Source: Betaproteobacteria bacterium (GTDB taxonomy: Bacteria > Pseudomonadota > Gammaproteobacteria > Burkholderiales > CAIKXV01). From it: a stretch of DNA of 45,982 nucleotides. Shown here one piece after another: positions 6,881 through 42,119 of the stretch (position 1 is the stretch's first letter; each line of letters opens with the position of its first letter). The notes under the pieces are model-generated. The model had not been told where the DNA came from. It worked only from the letters and a program-made list of their open reading frames with translations, and searched no databases. The position numbers were made by a program, and so were the translations under genes. The stretch is from assembly GCA_947458835.1 (NCBI GenBank), contig CANHBC010000004.1, forward strand, positions 1-45,982. Reading direction: 5' to 3'.

Positions 6881-7303
6881 GCGATGCGGGCTCACGGAAG
6901 GGAACCAGGGGCGGCAGACTGTCTGCTTCCGGGTAGATACCTTCCCGACCGCTCCCCGATGCGCCCGCGCTTGGGCCCACGCTTGCGCCCACGGAACGCA
7001 AACCAGCCACACGGGCGCCCCCCCCCTGGCGTGGGGCGTTCGGCGGCAAGCAGCCTGTCTCGGGCACTTTTGAAAGAGCGAGCGCCTGCGTGCAGGTGAA
7101 GCCAGATGGAAACAACCCTCAGCGCGCGTACCGATCTCGACCCGCGAGCGGCTGCAACGTACCTCGAGGAGAGCGTAAGCGGGCGTGATCACCGCTGCCG
7201 GCGCCTCTCTGACTCACTTCCGGAGCAAGGCAGACTAAATGGGCCCGGTTCAGTCCCGCAGGAGGACGTAACGGACTTGAACCATTGCCTTGCCGGAAAA
7301 AAA

Positions 7304-7380
7304 TGGGGTGGCTGATGGGACTCGAACCCACGACAACCGGAATCACAATCCGGGACTCTACCAACTGAGCTACAGCCACC
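7304..7380 (-). tRNA. tRNA-His (GTG)
   Basis: A 77-nt cloverleaf with anticodon loop TTGTGAT (anticodon GTG) between 5-bp stems, T-loop TTCGAGT, acceptor GTGGCTG/CAGCCAC and an encoded CCA. The extra encoded G-1 (position 7380) faces C73, the identity element of histidine tRNAs. It follows tRNA-Arg on the same strand by about 97 nt and is probably co-transcribed with it. Confidence 0.97.
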
Positions 7381-7477
7381 ACTGTCCTGCCAAGCCGCCT
7401 AGTATAACGGCCGTTCGCGTTTTGCGCGACCTCCGGGCGACTCGACCGTGACGGTCGGCGCTGCCGAAGGAGGGCGC

Positions 7478-7554
7478 TGGCGTGCCCGGCGCGACTCGAA
7501 CGCGCAACCGCCGGCTTAGAAGGCCGGTGCTCTATCCGGTTGAGCTACGGGCAC
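7478..7554 (-). tRNA. tRNA-Arg (TCT)
   Basis: A 77-nt cloverleaf: acceptor GTGCCCG/CGGGCAC, discriminator G, encoded CCA, D-arm with AGCTCAACCGGATAGAGC, anticodon loop CTTCTAA (anticodon TCT) closed by CCGGC/GCCGG, and T-loop TTCGAGT. It reads AGA codons. First of two tRNA genes on the minus strand, divergent from dksA. Confidence 0.97.
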
Positions 7555-7629
7555 CCGTCCCGGATTCTACGCGAGCGCACGCGCCTCCGAGGGCGGAACC
7601 GCGCGGGCGCGCGCCTTGCTCCCGGCCGC

Positions 7630-7658
7630 TTGCGGGCGCATGGACTTCATGCTATCAG
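7630..7658 (+). promoter_or_regulatory. Possible sigma-70 promoter of dksA
   Basis: TTGCGG at 7630-7635 and TATCAG at 7653-7658 are separated by 17 bases, about 70 nt before the dksA start. Both hexamers match the consensus only partly. Confidence 0.35.
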
Positions 7659-7726
7659 ACTTGTTTAAGCTACCGTTCGGCGGTACAAGCTGCGGCGGCA
7701 GCATCCTCGTGACTCCCGGAGGGACC

Positions 7727-8149
7727 ATGGCGGTCGATTTCCAGAACAAGGTTGCGCCCTACAAGCCCAAGAAGGACGAGGAGTACATGAACGCGAAGCA
7801 GCTCGACCACTTCCGCAAGATCCTTGCGGGCGTGAAGAGCGAGCTGTCGCACGACATCGACCGCACCGTGCAGATGATGCAGGACGAGGCCACGATCTTC
7901 GCCGACCCAAACGATCGCGCGAGCCAGGAGTCGGACATGGCGCTGGAACTGCGCAACCGCGACCGGGAGCGCAAGCTGATCAAGAAGATCGACGAGACGA
8001 TCGCCAGGATCGACGCGGGCGACTACGGCTACTGCGAGAGCTGTGGCATCGAGATCGGCCTGAAACGCCTCGAGGCACGCCCGACTGCGACGCTGTGCAT
8101 CGACTGCAAGACGCTCGACGAGATGCGCGAGCGACAGATCGCCAAATAG
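7727..8149 (+). CDS. dksA: RNA polymerase-binding transcription factor DksA
   Basis: Works with ppGpp in the RNA polymerase secondary channel to set stringent control of rRNA and amino-acid promoters (140 aa). The N-terminal globular part is followed by a coiled coil (about residues 33-100) whose tip carries the acidic pair in DPND (D60, D63), matching the functional tip of Escherichia coli DksA. A four-cysteine zinc finger follows (C103, C106, C124, C127). An ATG at 7727 with GGAGG about 8 nt before it is chosen over an upstream in-frame ATG at 7616. The gene is followed by a strong bidirectional terminator shared with the convergent pnp gene. Confidence 0.96.
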   Translation: MAVDFQNKVAPYKPKKDEEYMNAKQLDHFRKILAGVKSELSHDIDRTVQMMQDEATIFADPNDRASQESDMALELRNRDRERKLIKKIDETIARIDAGDYGYCESCGIEIGLKRLEARPTATLCIDCKTLDEMRERQIAK

Positions 8150-8171
8150 TCCCTGTCCCGCTGCTGGCATG

Positions 8172-8199
8172 AAAAAAGCCGGGCATTGCCCGGCTTTTT
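8172..8199. terminator. Bidirectional rho-independent terminator between dksA and pnp
   Basis: A-run, stem AAGCCGGGCA/TGCCCGGCTT with a tiny loop, then a T-run. The A- and T-tracts on both flanks allow it to end transcription of dksA (plus) and of pnp (minus). Confidence 0.93.
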
Positions 8200-8253
8200 G
8201 CGTTGGTACCCGGCCTGGCGCACGCCCGGCCGGGATGCCCACGGCGACCCGGT

Positions 8254-10353
8254 TCAACCGCCCGAGGCGTCGTCGGCTGCCGCCGCCTTCATGCTCAGGC
8301 GCAGGCGCCCCTTCTCGTCGGCCTCGAGCACCTTCACGCGTACCGCCTGGCCTTCTTTCAGGTGGTCGGACACGTTCGCCACGCGCTCGTTGGCGATCTG
8401 CGAGATGTGCAGCAGGCCATCCTTGCCCGGCAGCACGCTGACGATGGCACCGAAATCGAGCAGCTTGAGCACCGTGCCCTCGTAGATCCGGCCGACCTCG
8501 ACGTCCGCCGTGATCTCCTCGATGCGTTTCTTGGCCAGTGCACTGCCTTCGGCCGACACGCTGGCGATCGTCACCGTGCCGTCTTCGCCGATATCGATCG
8601 ACGTGCCGGTCTCTTCGGTCAGCGCTCGGATGACCGCGCCGCCCTTGCCGATCACGTCGCGGATCTTCTCCGGCTTGATCTTCATCGTGATCATGCGCGG
8701 GGCGAAGTTGGAGATTTCCTCGCGGGCGGTGGACATCGAGCCGCGCATGATGGAGAGAATGTGCATCCGCGCCTCGCGCGCCTGGTGCAGCGCGACGTTC
8801 ATGATCTCCTTGGTAATGCCGGTGATCTTGATGTCCATCTGCAGTGCGGTCACGCCCTGCTCGGTACCTGCGACCTTGAAGTCCATGTCGCCGAGGTGAT
8901 CCTCGTCGCCCAGGATGTCGGTCAGCACCGCGAAGCGGTTGCCGTCCTTGATCAGGCCCATCGCGATGCCGGCGACATGCGCCTTGACCGGCACCCCGGC
9001 GTCCATCAGCGCGAGGCAGCCGCCGCAGACCGAAGCCATCGAGCTCGAGCCGTTCGATTCGGTGATCTCGGACACCACACGGAAGGAGTACGCGAACTCT
9101 TCCGGCGAAGGCAGCACCGCCAGCAGCGCGCGCTTGGCGAGGCGGCCGTGGCCGATCTCGCGCCGCTTGGGCGAACCGACGCGGCCGGTCTCGCCGGTGG
9201 CGTAGGGCGGCATGTTGTAATTCATCATGAACCGGTCGTGGTACTCGCCCTGCAGCGCGTCGATGATCTGTTCGTCGCGCGAGGTGCCCAGCGTGGCCAC
9301 CACGAGTGCCTGCGTCTCGCCACGGGTGAACAGCGCCGAACCGTGCGCACGCGGCAGCAGGCCGGTGCGGACGTTGATCGGACGCACGGTGCGCGTGTCG
9401 CGGCCGTCGATCCGCGGCTCACCGGAGAGGATCTGGTTGCGCACGATGCCGGATTCGATGTCGCCGAAGATGCCCTTGAGCATCTGCGACGAGGGCGCGT
9501 CGGCCCCTTCGGCCAGCGCTGCAATCGCCTTGTCACGGATGGAGTAGACGAGCTTCGAACGGGACTGCTTCTCGCGAATCGCGTAGGCCGCACGCAGGTC
9601 GCCCTCGACCATCTCGCGCATGCGTGCGACAAGCGCCTCGTCCTTCACCGGCGGCGTCCAGTCCCACAGCGGCTTGCCCGCTTCGTCGGCCAGTTCGTTG
9701 ATGGCGTCGATAACCTGCTGCATCTGCTGATGGCCGTAGACGACTGCGCCCAGCATCACGTCTTCGGGCAGCTCGATTGCCTCGGACTCCACCATCAGCA
9801 CCGCCTGCGAGGTGCCGGCCACCACCAGGTTGAGCTGGGAGGTCTTGAGTTCGGTGAGCGTCGGGTTCAGCAGGTACTCGCCGTTGGCGTAGCCGACGCG
9901 GGCGGCGCCGATCGGCCCTTCGAACGGGATGCCGGACAGCGCGAGGGCGGCCGAGGTGCCGATCATCGACAGGATGTCGGAGTCGACTTCCGCGTTCGAC
10001 GACATCACGGTGGCCACTACCTGGACTTCATTGAAGAAGCCCTCGGGGAACAGGGGGCGGATCGGGCGGTCGATCAGGCGCGAGGTCAGGATCTCCTTCT
10101 CGGACGGACGGCCTTCACGCTTGAAGAAGCCGCCCGGGATCTTGCCCGCGGCGTAGGTCCGTTCCTGGTAGTCAACCGTCAGGGGGAAGAAATCCTTGCC
10201 CGGATCGGCCTGCCGCTTGCCGACGACGGTGACCAGCACCACCGTGTCGTCCATGTTCACCATGACCGCGCCGTCGGCCTGGCGGGCGATCTCGCCCGTT
10301 TCGATGGTCAGGGTATGCTTGCCCCATTGCAGGGTCTTGCGCACTGGATTCAA
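8254..10353 (-). CDS. pnp: Polyribonucleotide nucleotidyltransferase (PNPase)
   Basis: Phosphorolytic 3'-to-5' exoribonuclease of the RNA degradosome (699 aa). Two RNase PH domains are visible: one begins near [15 protein letters not shown] with the [15 protein letters not shown] motif, the second contains [25 protein letters not shown] and [16 protein letters not shown]. They are followed by a KH domain ([19 protein letters not shown]) and a C-terminal S1 domain ([31 protein letters not shown]). The start is set at TTG 10353, coding (M)[10 protein letters not shown], with AAAGG upstream. Relatives begin at this residue, and the frame before it is non-homologous. It lies 222 nt after rpsO, as in most proteobacteria. 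Confidence 0.96.
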
Positions 10354-37804: not shown

Positions 37805-37887
37805 CGATGGCTCGCTCCGGCGCAAACCGTGTACCGTGCCTTTCCGTCAGGCCGGTGCGCCCCGCATCATCTATCGAGGAGGTCAAC

Positions 37888-38664
37888 ATGGCCCAGGCAC
37901 AGCGCATCCGTTTCTTCACCAAGCCCGGCTGAACGAGCTGCCTCCGGACGAAAGAGTTTCTTTCGCGACTCGATATCGAATTCGACATCATCGATATCTT
38001 CAACGACCCGGCAGGGCTTGCTGAACTCACCGCGCTGGGTGCCAAGACCACCCCCGTTGTCGCCCGCGGCGACGAGTGGGTGCTCGGCCAGGTGATCCCC
38101 GAGGTAGCGAAGTTCCTCGGCCTGAAGTTCGACGGCGGGCCTGCGCTCACGCCGGCCGAACTGGTGCAGAAGGCCGAGGTGGTGCTGGCTGCCGCGCAGC
38201 GGTTCATCCCGCAACTGCCCCAGGAACGCTTCAACGACCTGCTGCCCATGTCCGGCCGCAAGCGGACCTACCGGGAACTCGCACACCACCTGGTACGCAT
38301 CCAGGAAGCCATGCTCGAGGCCGTACAGGGCATCGAGTTCACCATCGAGCAGCCGGTGAAGCCGCCGGAGGATTCGATCACCCGCCCGCAGCAGGTCGCC
38401 GACTACGCCGGCACGGTGCGCCAGCGGGTGCACGACTGGTGGGCTGGCCACGAGAAGACCGATCCGGCCGCGAAGCAGATCGTGCAGACCTACTTCGGCG
38501 AACAGCCGCTGTCGGTCCTGCTCGAGCGCTGCGCATGGCATTCCGCCCAGCACACCCGTCAACTGCAGCTCCTGCTCACCCGCATGAGCATCGAGCCGGC
38601 GGGTGCACTGACGGCGGAAGACCTGAAGGGGCTGCCACTGCCCGAGAAGGTCTGGGAAGACTAG
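37888..38664 (+). CDS. Selenoprotein: glutaredoxin-like domain (UxxC) fused to a DinB-like domain
   Basis: 258 residues, with the in-frame TGA at 37930-37932 read as selenocysteine 15. ATG 37888 has an AGGAGGT ribosome binding site. Residues 5-79 form a glutaredoxin-like fold: FFTKPG, then U15-T-S-C18, [19 protein letters not shown], the cis-proline segment TTPVV (P56) and a terminal helix. Residues about 88-230 resemble the DinB/thiol-transferase four-helix domain, with a candidate metal triad of H133 or H134 plus H218 and H222 (WHSAQH). The reading frame is identical before and after the TGA, and homology continues without a break. Family knowledge: DinB-type domains include thiol-dependent transferases. 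Inference: a selenol-based redox or transferase enzyme. Next gene selA starts 8 nt downstream. Automated calling would report only a truncated DinB protein from 38080. Confidence 0.9.
37930..37932 (+). other. UGA selenocysteine codon (recoding site)
   Basis: In-frame TGA at codon 15, at the first Cys position of a glutaredoxin CxxC motif, giving U-T-S-C. Coding sequence, homology and codon use continue in the same frame on both sides, and a hairpin with SECIS features follows. Confidence 0.9.
37933..37972 (+). promoter_or_regulatory. Bacterial SECIS element
   Basis: Immediately after the UGA: lower stem CGAG (37934-37937) with CTCG (37969-37972), internal loop, then a perfect 6-bp stem CGAAAG (37949-37954) with CTTTCG (37960-37965) and a 5-nt apical loop AGUUU. 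The loop GU lies 24-25 nt after the UGA, inside the 16-37 nt window known for SelB-bound bacterial SECIS elements. Confidence 0.82.
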
Positions 38665-38672
38665 CCCATGCC

Positions 38673-40058
38673 GTGAACGAGCCAGCCGCCGCAGTACTCC
38701 ACCCGCCATCGGTCGACCGGTTGCTTCGATCGGCCGATGGCCAGCGGCTGGTCGAACGGCATGGCCGTTCGCTCGCGCTCGAGGCCGTTCGCGATGGCCT
38801 CGAGCGGTTGCGGACCACAGCCGCGCCATTCGAGCACGAGGCATTCTTCGCATCCTGCGGCGCCCATCTTGAGCAGGACGCCCGCCCGGGCCTGCTGCCG
38901 GTGCTCAACCTCACGGGCACGGTGCTGCACACCAATCTCGGCCGTGCATGGGCCGCACCCGAGGCGATCGAGGCGGTCGCCGCGGTCATGGGACAGCCGT
39001 CCAACCTCGAGTTCGACCTCGGCAGCGGCCGCCGGGGCGAACGCGACAGCCATGTCGAGAAGCTGCTCTGCCGCATCACCGGCGCCGAGGCAGCCACGCT
39101 GGTGAACAACAACGCCGCTGCGGTGCTGCTGACGCTGACCGCACTGGCCGCGCGGCGCGAGGTGATCGTCTCGCGCGGCGAACTGATCGAGATCGGCGGC
39201 GCCTTCCGCATGCCCGACATCATGACCCGCGCGGGCTGCCGGCTGCGCGAGGTCGGCACCACCAACCGTACCCACGGACACGACTACGAAGAGGCGATCA
39301 GCCGCTCCACCGCCGCGCTGATGCGCGTGCACCCGAGCAACTACCAGGTCGAGGGCTTCACCGCCACCGTCGACACCCGCACCCTCGCCGGCATCGCGCA
39401 CGCGCACGACCTGCCGATGCTGGAGGACCTGGGCAGCGGGTCGCTGATCGACCTCGCCCCGTTCGGACTGCCTCACGAGCCCACGCCCCAGGAGGCACTG
39501 GCCGACGGCGCCGACGTGGTCACCTTCAGCGGCGACAAGCTGCTTGGCGGGCCGCAGGCCGGGCTGATTGTCGGACGCAAGGACCTCATTGACCGCATCC
39601 GGCGCTGCCCGCTCAAGCGGGCACTGCGCCTCGACAAGATGACCATCGCTGCGCTCGAGGCGACGCTGCGGCTTTACCTCGATCCGGACCGCCTGCGCCA
39701 GCGGCTTCCCGCGCTGCGCCTGCTCACCCGCCCGCGCGCCGAGATCCATGCCTGCGCGCTGCGCCTGCAGCCGGCGCTCGCCGCCGTGCTGGGGCCGCGC
39801 GCCACGGTCGAGGTCGTGGAATGTTCGAGCCAGATCGGCAGTGGCTCCCTGCCTGTCGACCGGCTGCCCTCGGCGGCACTGGCCATCCGCTTCACCGGGC
39901 GCGGCGGCGGTCTCGACCGTCTGGCGGCGCGGCTGCGCGCACTGCCCCGGCCGGTGATCGGGCGCATCCACGATCAGGCGCTGCTGCTCGACCTGCGCTG
40001 CCTCGAAGCCGACGGCGAAGCAGCGTTGCTGGCGCAGTTGCCGCAGCTGTCCGGGTGA
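38673..40058 (+). CDS. selA: L-seryl-tRNA(Sec) selenium transferase
   Basis: PLP enzyme (461 aa; Escherichia coli SelA is 463) that converts Ser-tRNA(Sec) to Sec-tRNA(Sec) using selenophosphate. Visible: N-terminal [38 protein letters not shown] (115-125), [19 protein letters not shown] and the PLP-lysine motif [15 protein letters not shown] (K289). The start is GTG 38673; the ATG five bases earlier is out of frame, and the long upstream extension overlaps the selenoprotein gene in another frame and is rejected. It lies 8 nt after the selenoprotein stop and 7 nt before selB, so one transcript is likely. The enzyme needs selenophosphate from SelD, which is not encoded in this window. Confidence 0.97.
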
Positions 40059-40065
40059 GCACGCC

Positions 40066-42006
40066 ATGATCGTCGCTACCGCCGGACACATCGACCACGG
40101 CAAGACACTGCTGGTCCATCGCCTCACCGGGATCGATACCGACCGGCTGCCGGAGGAAAAGCGCCGCGGCATCTCGATCGACATCGGCTTCGCGCACCTG
40201 CGCCTGCCCGACGGCGGCAGCATCGGCTTCATCGACGTGCCCGGACACGAGCGCTTCGTGCGCAACATGCTGGCCGGCGTGTCGGGCATCGACTTCGTGC
40301 TGCTGGTGGTGGCCGCAGACGACGGCGTGATGCCGCAGACGCGAGAGCACCTGGCGATTCTCGACCTGCTGGGCGTTCGCGACGGGCTGCTCGTGGTGAC
40401 CAAGGCCGACCGTGTCCCGGCCGCCCGGGCCGAGGCGGTCATCGCCGAGGTCCGGGCGCTGGTCGCAGGCACCGCGCTGCAGGACGCCCCTGCGATGGCC
40501 GTGTCGGCGCTCGGCGGCGAAGGCATCGACGAACTGCGCAGCCGTCTGGTCACGGCACTCGGTGCACAGCGGCAACGGGCGGCAGACGGTCGCCATTTCC
40601 GGCTCGCGATCGACCGCTGCTTCACCGTCGCGGGCAGCGGCACCGTCGTCACCGGTACCATTTTCGCCGGCAGCGTCAAGGTCGGCGATTCGCTCTGCCT
40701 GTCCCCCTCCGGTGTCGCAGTCAGGGTACGCGGCCTCCAGGTGCAGGGCCGCAGCGTGGAGAAGGCCCGCGCCGGTGCACGCTGCGCGGTGAACCTGTCC
40801 GGGGCCGACCTGCAGAAGGACGCCATCGGACGCGGCGAGTGGCTGGTCGCCCCGCCGATCCACGCCCCCACCAGCCGTATCGACGTCCACCTGCGCGCGC
40901 TGGCCACCGAATCGCATGCACTGAAGCACTGGACCCCGGTGCACCTGCACCTGGGCACGGTCGACGTGACCGGGCGACTGTCGACGCGGCGCGACCTGTC
41001 GATCGCACCGGGCACCGCCGCGGTTGCGCAGGTCGTGCTCGACCAGCCGATCGGTGCGCTGGCCGGCGACCGGTTCATCGTCCGCGACTTCTCTGCGCAG
41101 CGCACCATCGGCGGCGGCCACGTGATCGACCCGTTCCCGCCGCCGCGTCGGCGCCGCGTCGCCGAGCGGCAACTCGAACTCACCGCACTCGACGGTGACG
41201 CACCGGCCGAGGTGCTGAGGGCCCTGCTGCCGCTGGCGGCCACCGGCGTCGATCTCGCGCTGTTCGAGCGACGCTTCAACCTCACGCCCGAGGCGGCGCG
41301 CGACCTCTACGCCGGGAGCGGCCTGGTGTCGCTCGGGCGCGACCTTCGCCTCGGCTTCGAGCCTGCTCGGCTGTCGGCGATGCGCGAGCGGCTGCTGACC
41401 GAGGTCCGGAACTTCCACGCAGCCTCTCCCCAGTCCACCGGCATCGAGCTGGGCCAGTTACAGAAGAACGCCGGGCTGTCGCTGCCGGACGAGACCCTGC
41501 AGGCGGTCCTGCGCGACGCCGTCCAGGCGCGCGCGCTCGAACTGGTCGGAGGCCTCGCGCGCGTGCCCGGCTTCGACGCGGCCGCCAACAGTGCCGACGA
41601 GGCAATGTGGAAGCGCGTTCGGCCGCTGCTGGCGAAGACGCCGAGCGCGCCGCCGCAGGTACGAGAGATCGCCGCGTCGCTCCGGCTCGACGAGAAGGCC
41701 CTGCAGGCGATGCTCCAGCGCCGGGTCAAGCGCGGTGAACTGGTGCGCATCGACCCGCAGCGGCTGTACCTGCGCCACGCGATCGTCGCGCTGGCGCGCG
41801 TGGCCGAAGCGACCGCGCAGGCAGCCCCTGGCGGGCAGTTCAACGCCGCCCAGTACCGTGACCGCGCGGGCATCGGACGCAGCCTCGCGATCCAGATCCT
41901 CGAGCATTTCGACAGCGCCGGCCTGACGCTGCGCGTCGGGGACGCCCGCAAGCTTCGGCGAAAGGTCGCCGACGTGTACCCGGAAGCCGCGGCGTCGGGC
42001 ACGTGA
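40066..42006 (+). CDS. selB: Selenocysteine-specific elongation factor SelB
   Basis: 646 aa. N-terminal EF-Tu-like G domain with P-loop GHIDHGKT (residues 7-14), [16 protein letters not shown] and TKADRVP; domains II and III follow ([44 protein letters not shown]). About residues 380-646 are the winged-helix repeats that bind the SECIS hairpin, including [14 protein letters not shown] and [25 protein letters not shown]. It brings Sec-tRNA(Sec) to ribosomes stalled at a UGA with a SECIS element. The ATG lies 7 nt after the selA stop; selC begins 17 nt after its stop. Confidence 0.97.
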
Positions 42007-42023: not shown

Positions 42024-42119
42024 GGAAGGGAAACGTCCCCGGTGGGACGGCCGGACTTCAAACCCGGTGAGGGCTGTGATCCAGTCCTCCGTGCGTTCGA
42101 CTCGCACTCTCTTCCGCCA
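42024..42119 (+). tRNA. selC: tRNA-Sec (TCA)
   Basis: 96-nt selenocysteine tRNA with all special features: 8-bp acceptor GGAAGGGA/TCTCTTCC plus 5-bp T-stem GTGCG/CGCAC (8+5 arrangement), 6-bp D-stem CGTCCC/GGGACG with a 4-nt loop, anticodon loop CTTCAAA (anticodon TCA), a long variable arm closed by GAGG/CCTC, discriminator G and encoded CCA. It lies 17 nt after selB, so it may be cut from the same transcript. Confidence 0.96.

Follow-up and report, generated by a model that had tools for sequence, protein, structure and literature searches.

A predicted selenoprotein combining a glutaredoxin and a DinB domain, encoded directly in front of selA-selB-selC in a Burkholderiales genome

We analyzed a stretch of 45,982 nucleotides (the window) from the genome of a Betaproteobacteria bacterium of the order Burkholderiales (contig CANHBC010000004.1, assembly GCA_947458835.1). 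All window coordinates given below refer to its plus strand. The gene at 37888-38664 almost certainly encodes a selenoprotein with selenocysteine (Sec) at residue 15, as predicted from its sequence and from 58 distinct homologous reading frames. That this recoding serves a redox role of the product, a glutaredoxin domain fused to a DinB domain, appears highly probable on the same grounds. A predicted two-domain selenoprotein, which the standard reading shortens, is thereby added to the known ones.

A Shine-Dalgarno-like AGGAGGT (37877-37883) was found 4 nt 5' of the ATG at 37888. The start codon is followed by 14 sense codons including itself, the TGA, 243 further sense codons and the stop codon TAG at 38662-38664, which makes 258 codons plus stop. 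The AGGAGGT, the ATG, the 14 codons, the TGA and the 243 further codons had been listed in a preliminary description of this DNA, and all of them were present in the sequence. The TGA at codon 15 (37930-37932) is the only one in the frame. After readthrough the motif is PGUTSC, and the predicted Sec takes the first position of UTSC. The claim that it replaces the first Cys of a glutaredoxin CxxC is borne out by the relatives, as Cys occupies this codon in all 15 distinct copies that lack the TGA. With translation table 11 the open reading frame begins only at GTG 38080 and has 194 aa, as had been anticipated for a standard gene start.

We compared the 58 reading frames, with identical ones counted once, and observed TGA in 43 and Cys in 15 at the first position of [U/C]xxC. 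Residues 15, 18 and 56 ([C/U]xxC and the cis-Pro) were kept in 58 of 58. The preliminary description had proposed a search for full-length Cys relatives with the same fusion; the 15 Cys copies are such relatives. A pseudogene or a sequencing error was rejected, the TGA being common to 43 distinct copies; with 42 of these besides the window copy, a slip at 37930-37932 is very unlikely. Further, 43 distinct homologous frames with TGA at this codon, open on both sides, argue against a chance frame.

The contig scan gave seven full-length relatives (73-91% identity), all seven with TGA at the same codon, in records named Betaproteobacteria, Burkholderiales, uncultured proteobacterium or uncultured bacterium; another contig, CAMDXD010000366.1 (L021), begins within the last 17 codons of the fusion. 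A second copy in the window's genome is 36% identical and also carries TGA at this codon. Of 399 genomes of the order searched with a profile, 36 gave a match and 35 had the fusion, 27 of them in the TGA form and 8 in the Cys form alone. Among 398 genomes sampled from the phylum, the fusion was found in the window's genome and in G794 (TGA form). In a class sample of 274 genomes there was one full-length match besides the window's genome, the Cys form of G120, and 10 weak partial matches. The latter were not counted as fusion copies, nor were G570 (residues 3-65 only) and the partial G564:C51 (residues 191-257); the start of L040 was possibly called too far upstream. Thirteen plasmid records held relatives of 26-45% identity, and the six that were retrieved all had Cys. 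Plasmids of Caballeronia, Variovorax, Roseomonas and Rhizobium are among the carriers of Cys copies, some of which bear the annotation glutaredoxin domain-containing or DinB family protein. We computed a maximum-likelihood tree with residues 13-30 left out, on which the Sec/Cys label required three changes (bootstrap range 2-3; mean after shuffling 13.4); gains and losses were not separable, and several branches are long. One group held 41 TGA copies, L051 fell among the Cys copies, and a very long branch led to L071.

A SECIS-like hairpin, CGAAAGA-GUU-UCUUUCG, is present at 37949-37965, with the stem beginning 16 nt and the loop 23 nt past the UGA. We found the hairpin in 42 of 43 TGA copies, 39 times in exact form and 3 times with one G-U pair, and in 0 of 15 Cys copies. 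Codons 22-26 (KEFLS) were AAA GAG TTT CTT TCG in 39 of 43 TGA copies and in none of the 15 Cys copies. The deviations were AAG alone in three TGA copies and AAG together with CTA in L051, which belongs to a different lineage (genome G794) and has another predicted hairpin. Elsewhere in the fusion genes TTT accounts for 14% of Phe codons and CTT for 7% of Leu codons, and the product of the five codon frequencies is 0.0006. All 43 TGA copies have Ser26, which only 1 of the 15 Cys copies shares. For conserved degenerate columns in the TGA copies, normalised codon entropy averaged 0.61, while it was zero at E23, F24 and S26, as well as at the TGA codon itself; no codon column of the Cys set had zero entropy. 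This unusually clear SECIS and codon signature divides the Sec from the Cys copies.

Covariation was discarded as proof of the hairpin, since the stem is nearly invariant (3 copies have G-U in place of A-U). Because there is almost no covariation, we used codon invariance, which together with the absence of the hairpin from the Cys copies supports the putative signal. RNA folding of the 61 nt past the UGA gave a stability that was not unusual (z-score 0.22). The apical loop GUU contains a G, as the bacterial SECIS criterion asks, and a SECIS role is putative. A scan of the window's genome for the exact UGA-plus-hairpin pattern matched the window copy only, which means that this genome does not use the exact hairpin as a general SECIS. 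The second fusion copy there has a G-U variant of the hairpin, and the UGSC selenoprotein gene discussed below has another sequence. The divergent fusion copy L071 (G411:C122:4537-5271) retained UxxC, the TGA and the hairpin despite its very divergent protein, and two of its three DinB His residues are gone.

The genes for Sec insertion lie directly behind the fusion in the order selA-selB-selC, as the preliminary description had stated; profiles and a tRNA-Sec search verified this. The selA gene (38673-40058) has a GTG start 8 nt past the fusion stop and scored 582.2 bits with TIGR00474 (cut-off 267.9); the scan began at 38676, and the start at 38673 was set by inspection. It is followed by selB (40066-42006; TIGR00475, 418.9 bits vs cut-off 242.25) and by selC, the tRNA-Sec with anticodon TCA (42024-42119; ARAGORN, and Rfam RF01852 with 72.9 bits). 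A selD gene with one in-frame TGA was found elsewhere in the genome (G000:C20:26738-27679), which thus holds the selA, selB, selC and selD required for a bacterial selenoprotein.

We detected selA (threshold E<=1e-70) in 108 of the 399 order genomes: in 27/27 with the TGA form, in 2/8 with the Cys form only (G512, G542) and in 79/364 without the fusion. Outside the order sample, G794 (TGA) had selA and G120 (Cys) did not. Overall, selA was present in 28/28 TGA-form genomes vs 2/9 genomes with the Cys form only; Fisher tests on such co-occurrence ignore the relatedness of the genomes. The selD gene was found in 27 of the 28 TGA-form genomes (absent from G275), in 25 of the 28 with an in-frame TGA of its own. 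It does not discriminate the Sec from the Cys form, because 8 of 9 Cys-only genomes had it as well. A TGA copy shared the selA contig in 23 of the 27 TGA-form order genomes, the two matches being about 44 to 5,047 nt apart; in G572, G275, G324 and G534 the fusion and selA matches were on separate contigs.

These data bear on how the TGA is read. If it were a true stop, the gene would yield a 14-residue leader, or a separate DinB protein of 194 aa would start at GTG 38080, which is what the standard table 11 reading with its GTG suggests. We consider this very improbable: the 49 codons from the TGA to 38080 encode most of the conserved glutaredoxin domain, the codons 5' of the TGA are kept in register, the Cys homologues run on continuously and the SECIS-like hairpin occurs in TGA copies only. 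UGA can in general also be read through without Sec, for example by a near-cognate tRNA such as that for Trp. For this gene such decoding hardly deserves credence, as the position is a catalytic Cys in all 15 non-TGA copies, every one of the 28 TGA-form genomes has selA and the fusion adjoins selA-selB-selC. The central claim of the preliminary description, a glutaredoxin-DinB selenoprotein, was thus upheld by the Cys relatives, by the hairpin of the TGA copies and by selA in every TGA-form genome. Under the Sec reading, SelB, whose gene lies in this run, would recognise the hairpin that starts 16 nt past the UGA and insert Sec at residue 15. Our analysis adds to the earlier claims a paralogue, the SECIS-like signal, and the flavoprotein and UGSC selenoproteins that are inherited along with the fusion.

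The product would join a Sec-x-x-Cys domain of glutaredoxin fold to a domain of DinB/YfiT fold with a three-His site. The glutaredoxin domain (residues 9-63, 37912-38076; UxxC, cis-Pro 56) scored 44.3 bits with PF00462 vs a cut-off of 22.9, and a DinB/YfiT-like four-helix domain was delimited by model and fold search at residues 85-242 (38140-38613), with a PF12867 (DinB_2) match on residues 122-226 (37.1 bits vs cut-off 24.8); in both Pfam scans Cys was substituted for Sec. At E<=0.001, PF00462 matched 41 of 41 scanned fusion members and PF12867 matched 30 of 41. The AlphaFold model, built from 35 alignment rows, had a mean pLDDT of 94.1 and a pTM of 0.90 and contained both folds.

A selenoprotein glutaredoxin of Clostridium oremlandii was reportedly described by Kim et al. 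in 2011, and we take PDB 7c10 ('Dithiol cGrx1') to be this protein. The first 80 residues of the model resemble cGrx1 and NrdH redoxins. Like cGrx1, the fusion has the glutaredoxin fold and UxxC; 7c10 was its best solved-structure profile match (E 2.3e-16) and fits model residues 4-78 (fold Z 11.5, rmsd 1.7 over 75 residues). Unlike this stand-alone chain of 84 residues, the fusion has a C-terminal DinB domain and comes from another bacterial group. The best NCBIfam score of the glutaredoxin domain was obtained with an NrdH-like model, and none of the NCBIfam models listed for the window protein reached its cut-off. The reductant of NrdH is thioredoxin reductase.

Residues 85-242 of the model resemble DinB/YfiT proteins, mycothiol S-transferase and maleylpyruvate isomerase. 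The fusion shares with this S-transferase-like superfamily the four-helix domain, three conserved His and HxxxH, with fold Z of 12.8 for YfiT (1rxq), 12.4 for mycothiol S-transferase (8f5v) and 11.2 for mycothiol-dependent maleylpyruvate isomerase (2nsf). It differs from all three in that its DinB domain sits behind a Sec glutaredoxin, and identity is 14-17%. The best Z of the DinB-domain fold search was 14.2, a value that helical bundles can reach without kinship; the Pfam hit and the three His therefore weigh more than the fold score. A GST-like overall layout is not claimed, as GSTs align over both domains only at rmsd 10 or more. His134 was found in 58/58 members and His218 and His222 in 57/58 each, with the set complete in 57/58. 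As judged from this conservation, the three are likely the metal ligands of the DinB domain. They agree in number and HxxxH spacing with H67, H160 and H164, the metal-site His of B. subtilis BstA according to PMC5815605; PMC10950700 describes S-transferases of the DinB type with their metal sites. We favor, with some reserve, the view that the DinB domain is a metal-dependent thiol site.

Sec glutaredoxins are already known, and what we predict to be new is the Sec-glutaredoxin-DinB architecture. The accessible part of a 2026 review (PMC13188914, Table 1 with 119 families) includes stand-alone Grx, Uxx-star and HUGP/GUXX-star fusion families and names UGSC among predicted selenoprotein families; neither the glutaredoxin-DinB architecture nor the term DinB appears in that table. 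A search of open-licence full texts, a scope that leaves subscription papers outside, gave nothing relevant on a selenoprotein with DinB. The assertion that the architecture had not been characterised as a selenoprotein agrees with both results. A term search of PMC12013277 returned neither Grx nor DinB. A Grx-like family with 42 sequences is reported in PMC2398784; its members lie outside the present comparison. The fusion resembles Uxx-star and HUGP/GUXX-star (NF041212, NF041211, NF045501) in its Sec glutaredoxin-like domain, and NF041212 matched 41 of 41 scanned members at E<=0.001. However, the window protein stays far under the curated cut-offs (NF041212, 32.8 vs 66; NF041211, 26.4 vs 100; NF045501, 17.5 vs 325), and these families name no DinB domain. 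UGSC (PF24696, NF041046) has genomes and Sec machinery in common with the fusion; we saw no likeness between the two in sequence or fold.

The Sec form co-occurs with a flavoprotein and with UGSC selenoproteins, and gene neighbourhoods tie them in places, which is also new. The flavoprotein has a CADC motif and is thioredoxin-reductase-like. It is the next protein ORF past selB in 12 selA loci of other genera, in a run that includes the fusion (rough ORF calls). While fusion and selA were surveyed in 399 genomes, the flavoprotein and UGSC were surveyed in 56 chosen ones; the 19 controls, taken from the upper part of the list of 79 selA-positive fusion-free genomes with G283 passed over, are not a random sample. 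A flavoprotein relative (E<=1e-40) was found in 26/28 TGA-form genomes (not in G275 and G324), in 1/9 Cys-only genomes (G374) and in 0/19 controls. The best match was 41-48% identical in the window's genus and 40% in G794, near the threshold. UGSC (E<=1e-5) was present in 28/28, 3/9 and 1/19, respectively. All 27 flavoprotein genomes also had the fusion (26 Sec, 1 Cys), in a sample picked by the fusion.

In the window's genome a UGSC gene with one TGA (134.5 bits vs cut-off 125) lies at C40:5571-6074, near the flavoprotein gene at C40:9939-10847, and two copies of an unannotated WSDG protein are encoded between them. In G794, outside the order, 36 nt separate the UGSC match from the flavoprotein match. 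In G402 and G440 an oppositely oriented UGSC-type gene with UGAC lies between the fusion and selA. UGSC is not dependent on the Sec fusion or the flavoprotein: selA and UGSC without the flavoprotein were seen in two genomes with a Cys fusion (G512, G542) and in one that has no fusion at all (G331), and in a phylum sample of 369 genomes UGSC was found in five, three of which (G798, G918, G949) had no fusion match; the UGSC of G798 had no TGA.

We see a nearly even chance that the fusion belongs to a single module together with the flavoprotein and UGSC. In such a module, the Sec15/Cys18 pair would be a fast thiol/selenol redox centre, reduced by the thioredoxin-reductase-like flavoprotein with NAD(P)H as the electron source. 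It might then either pass the electrons to UGSC-family selenoenzymes or regenerate a thiol substrate activated by the DinB metal site, as S-transferases of the superfamily do. More tentatively, Burkholderiales and at least one outside lineage may have an undescribed selenium redox module, in which electrons would run from the flavoprotein through the Sec-glutaredoxin-DinB protein to many UGSC selenoenzymes (one genome has at least 51 matches) and to their WSDG partners. These would be reduced or thiol-loaded and act on varied organic substrates, as a counterpart of the clostridial glycine/proline reductase relays. This gives a lead on UGSC selenoproteins, with possible redox partners named and copy numbers per genome shown.

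Two other arrangements have to be weighed against the module. The selenoprotein may act alone in catabolism, as an S-transferase, isomerase or deglutathionylase that depends on glutathione or another thiol and is unlinked to UGSC and the flavoprotein. We regard this as only a little less probable than the one-module reading: it stays a strong rival because second and Cys copies are often near catabolic genes (RidA, DUF1989, MmgE/PrpD, amidase, isochorismatase and others), mycothiol and bacillithiol transferases are found among the DinB relatives, as is the mycothiol-dependent maleylpyruvate isomerase, and the trio may merely mark certain Sec-user lineages. However, the flavoprotein in 26/28 and UGSC in 28/28 TGA-form genomes, vs 0 and 1 of the 19 fusion-free selA-positive ones, speak against it, as does the recurrence of the UGSC-flavoprotein link outside the order in G794. 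Alternatively, the flavoprotein could pair with UGSC alone, the fusion having come to lie beside selA through horizontal transfer of Sec genes together. The neighbourhoods in the window's genome and in several of its genus, where the flavoprotein is near UGSC and not near the fusion, are in line with that, and so is G374, in which UGSC is near the flavoprotein and the Cys fusion is on another contig. We consider it unlikely, as the flavoprotein directly follows selB in the fusion runs of the 12 loci of other genera, and no flavoprotein genome of the fusion-selected sample was without the fusion.

UGSC is strongly expanded in some Burkholderiales-like genomes of the order, with one TGA each among the matches listed. 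At E<=1e-5 we counted at least 51 matches in G564 (51 scored of 71 candidates), 24 in G327, 24 in G411, 19 in G278 and 19 in G534. A structure search with the UGSC model gave no informative match, hence no clue to the UGSC reaction. G374 had four UGSC matches (with TGA in the match listed), the flavoprotein and the Cys fusion, and no selA at E<=1e-70, which reflects either a gap in the bin or a recent loss. Proteins with WSDGxPVVxPT are encoded as separate genes beside UGSC at L120:6089-7192 and 7140-8387 (minus strand); there was no Pfam match for either of them and no NCBIfam match for the one scanned. In G402 and G440 (L087, L088) a protein part with this motif forms the C-terminal region of the UGSC-type ORF that lies between the fusion and selA.
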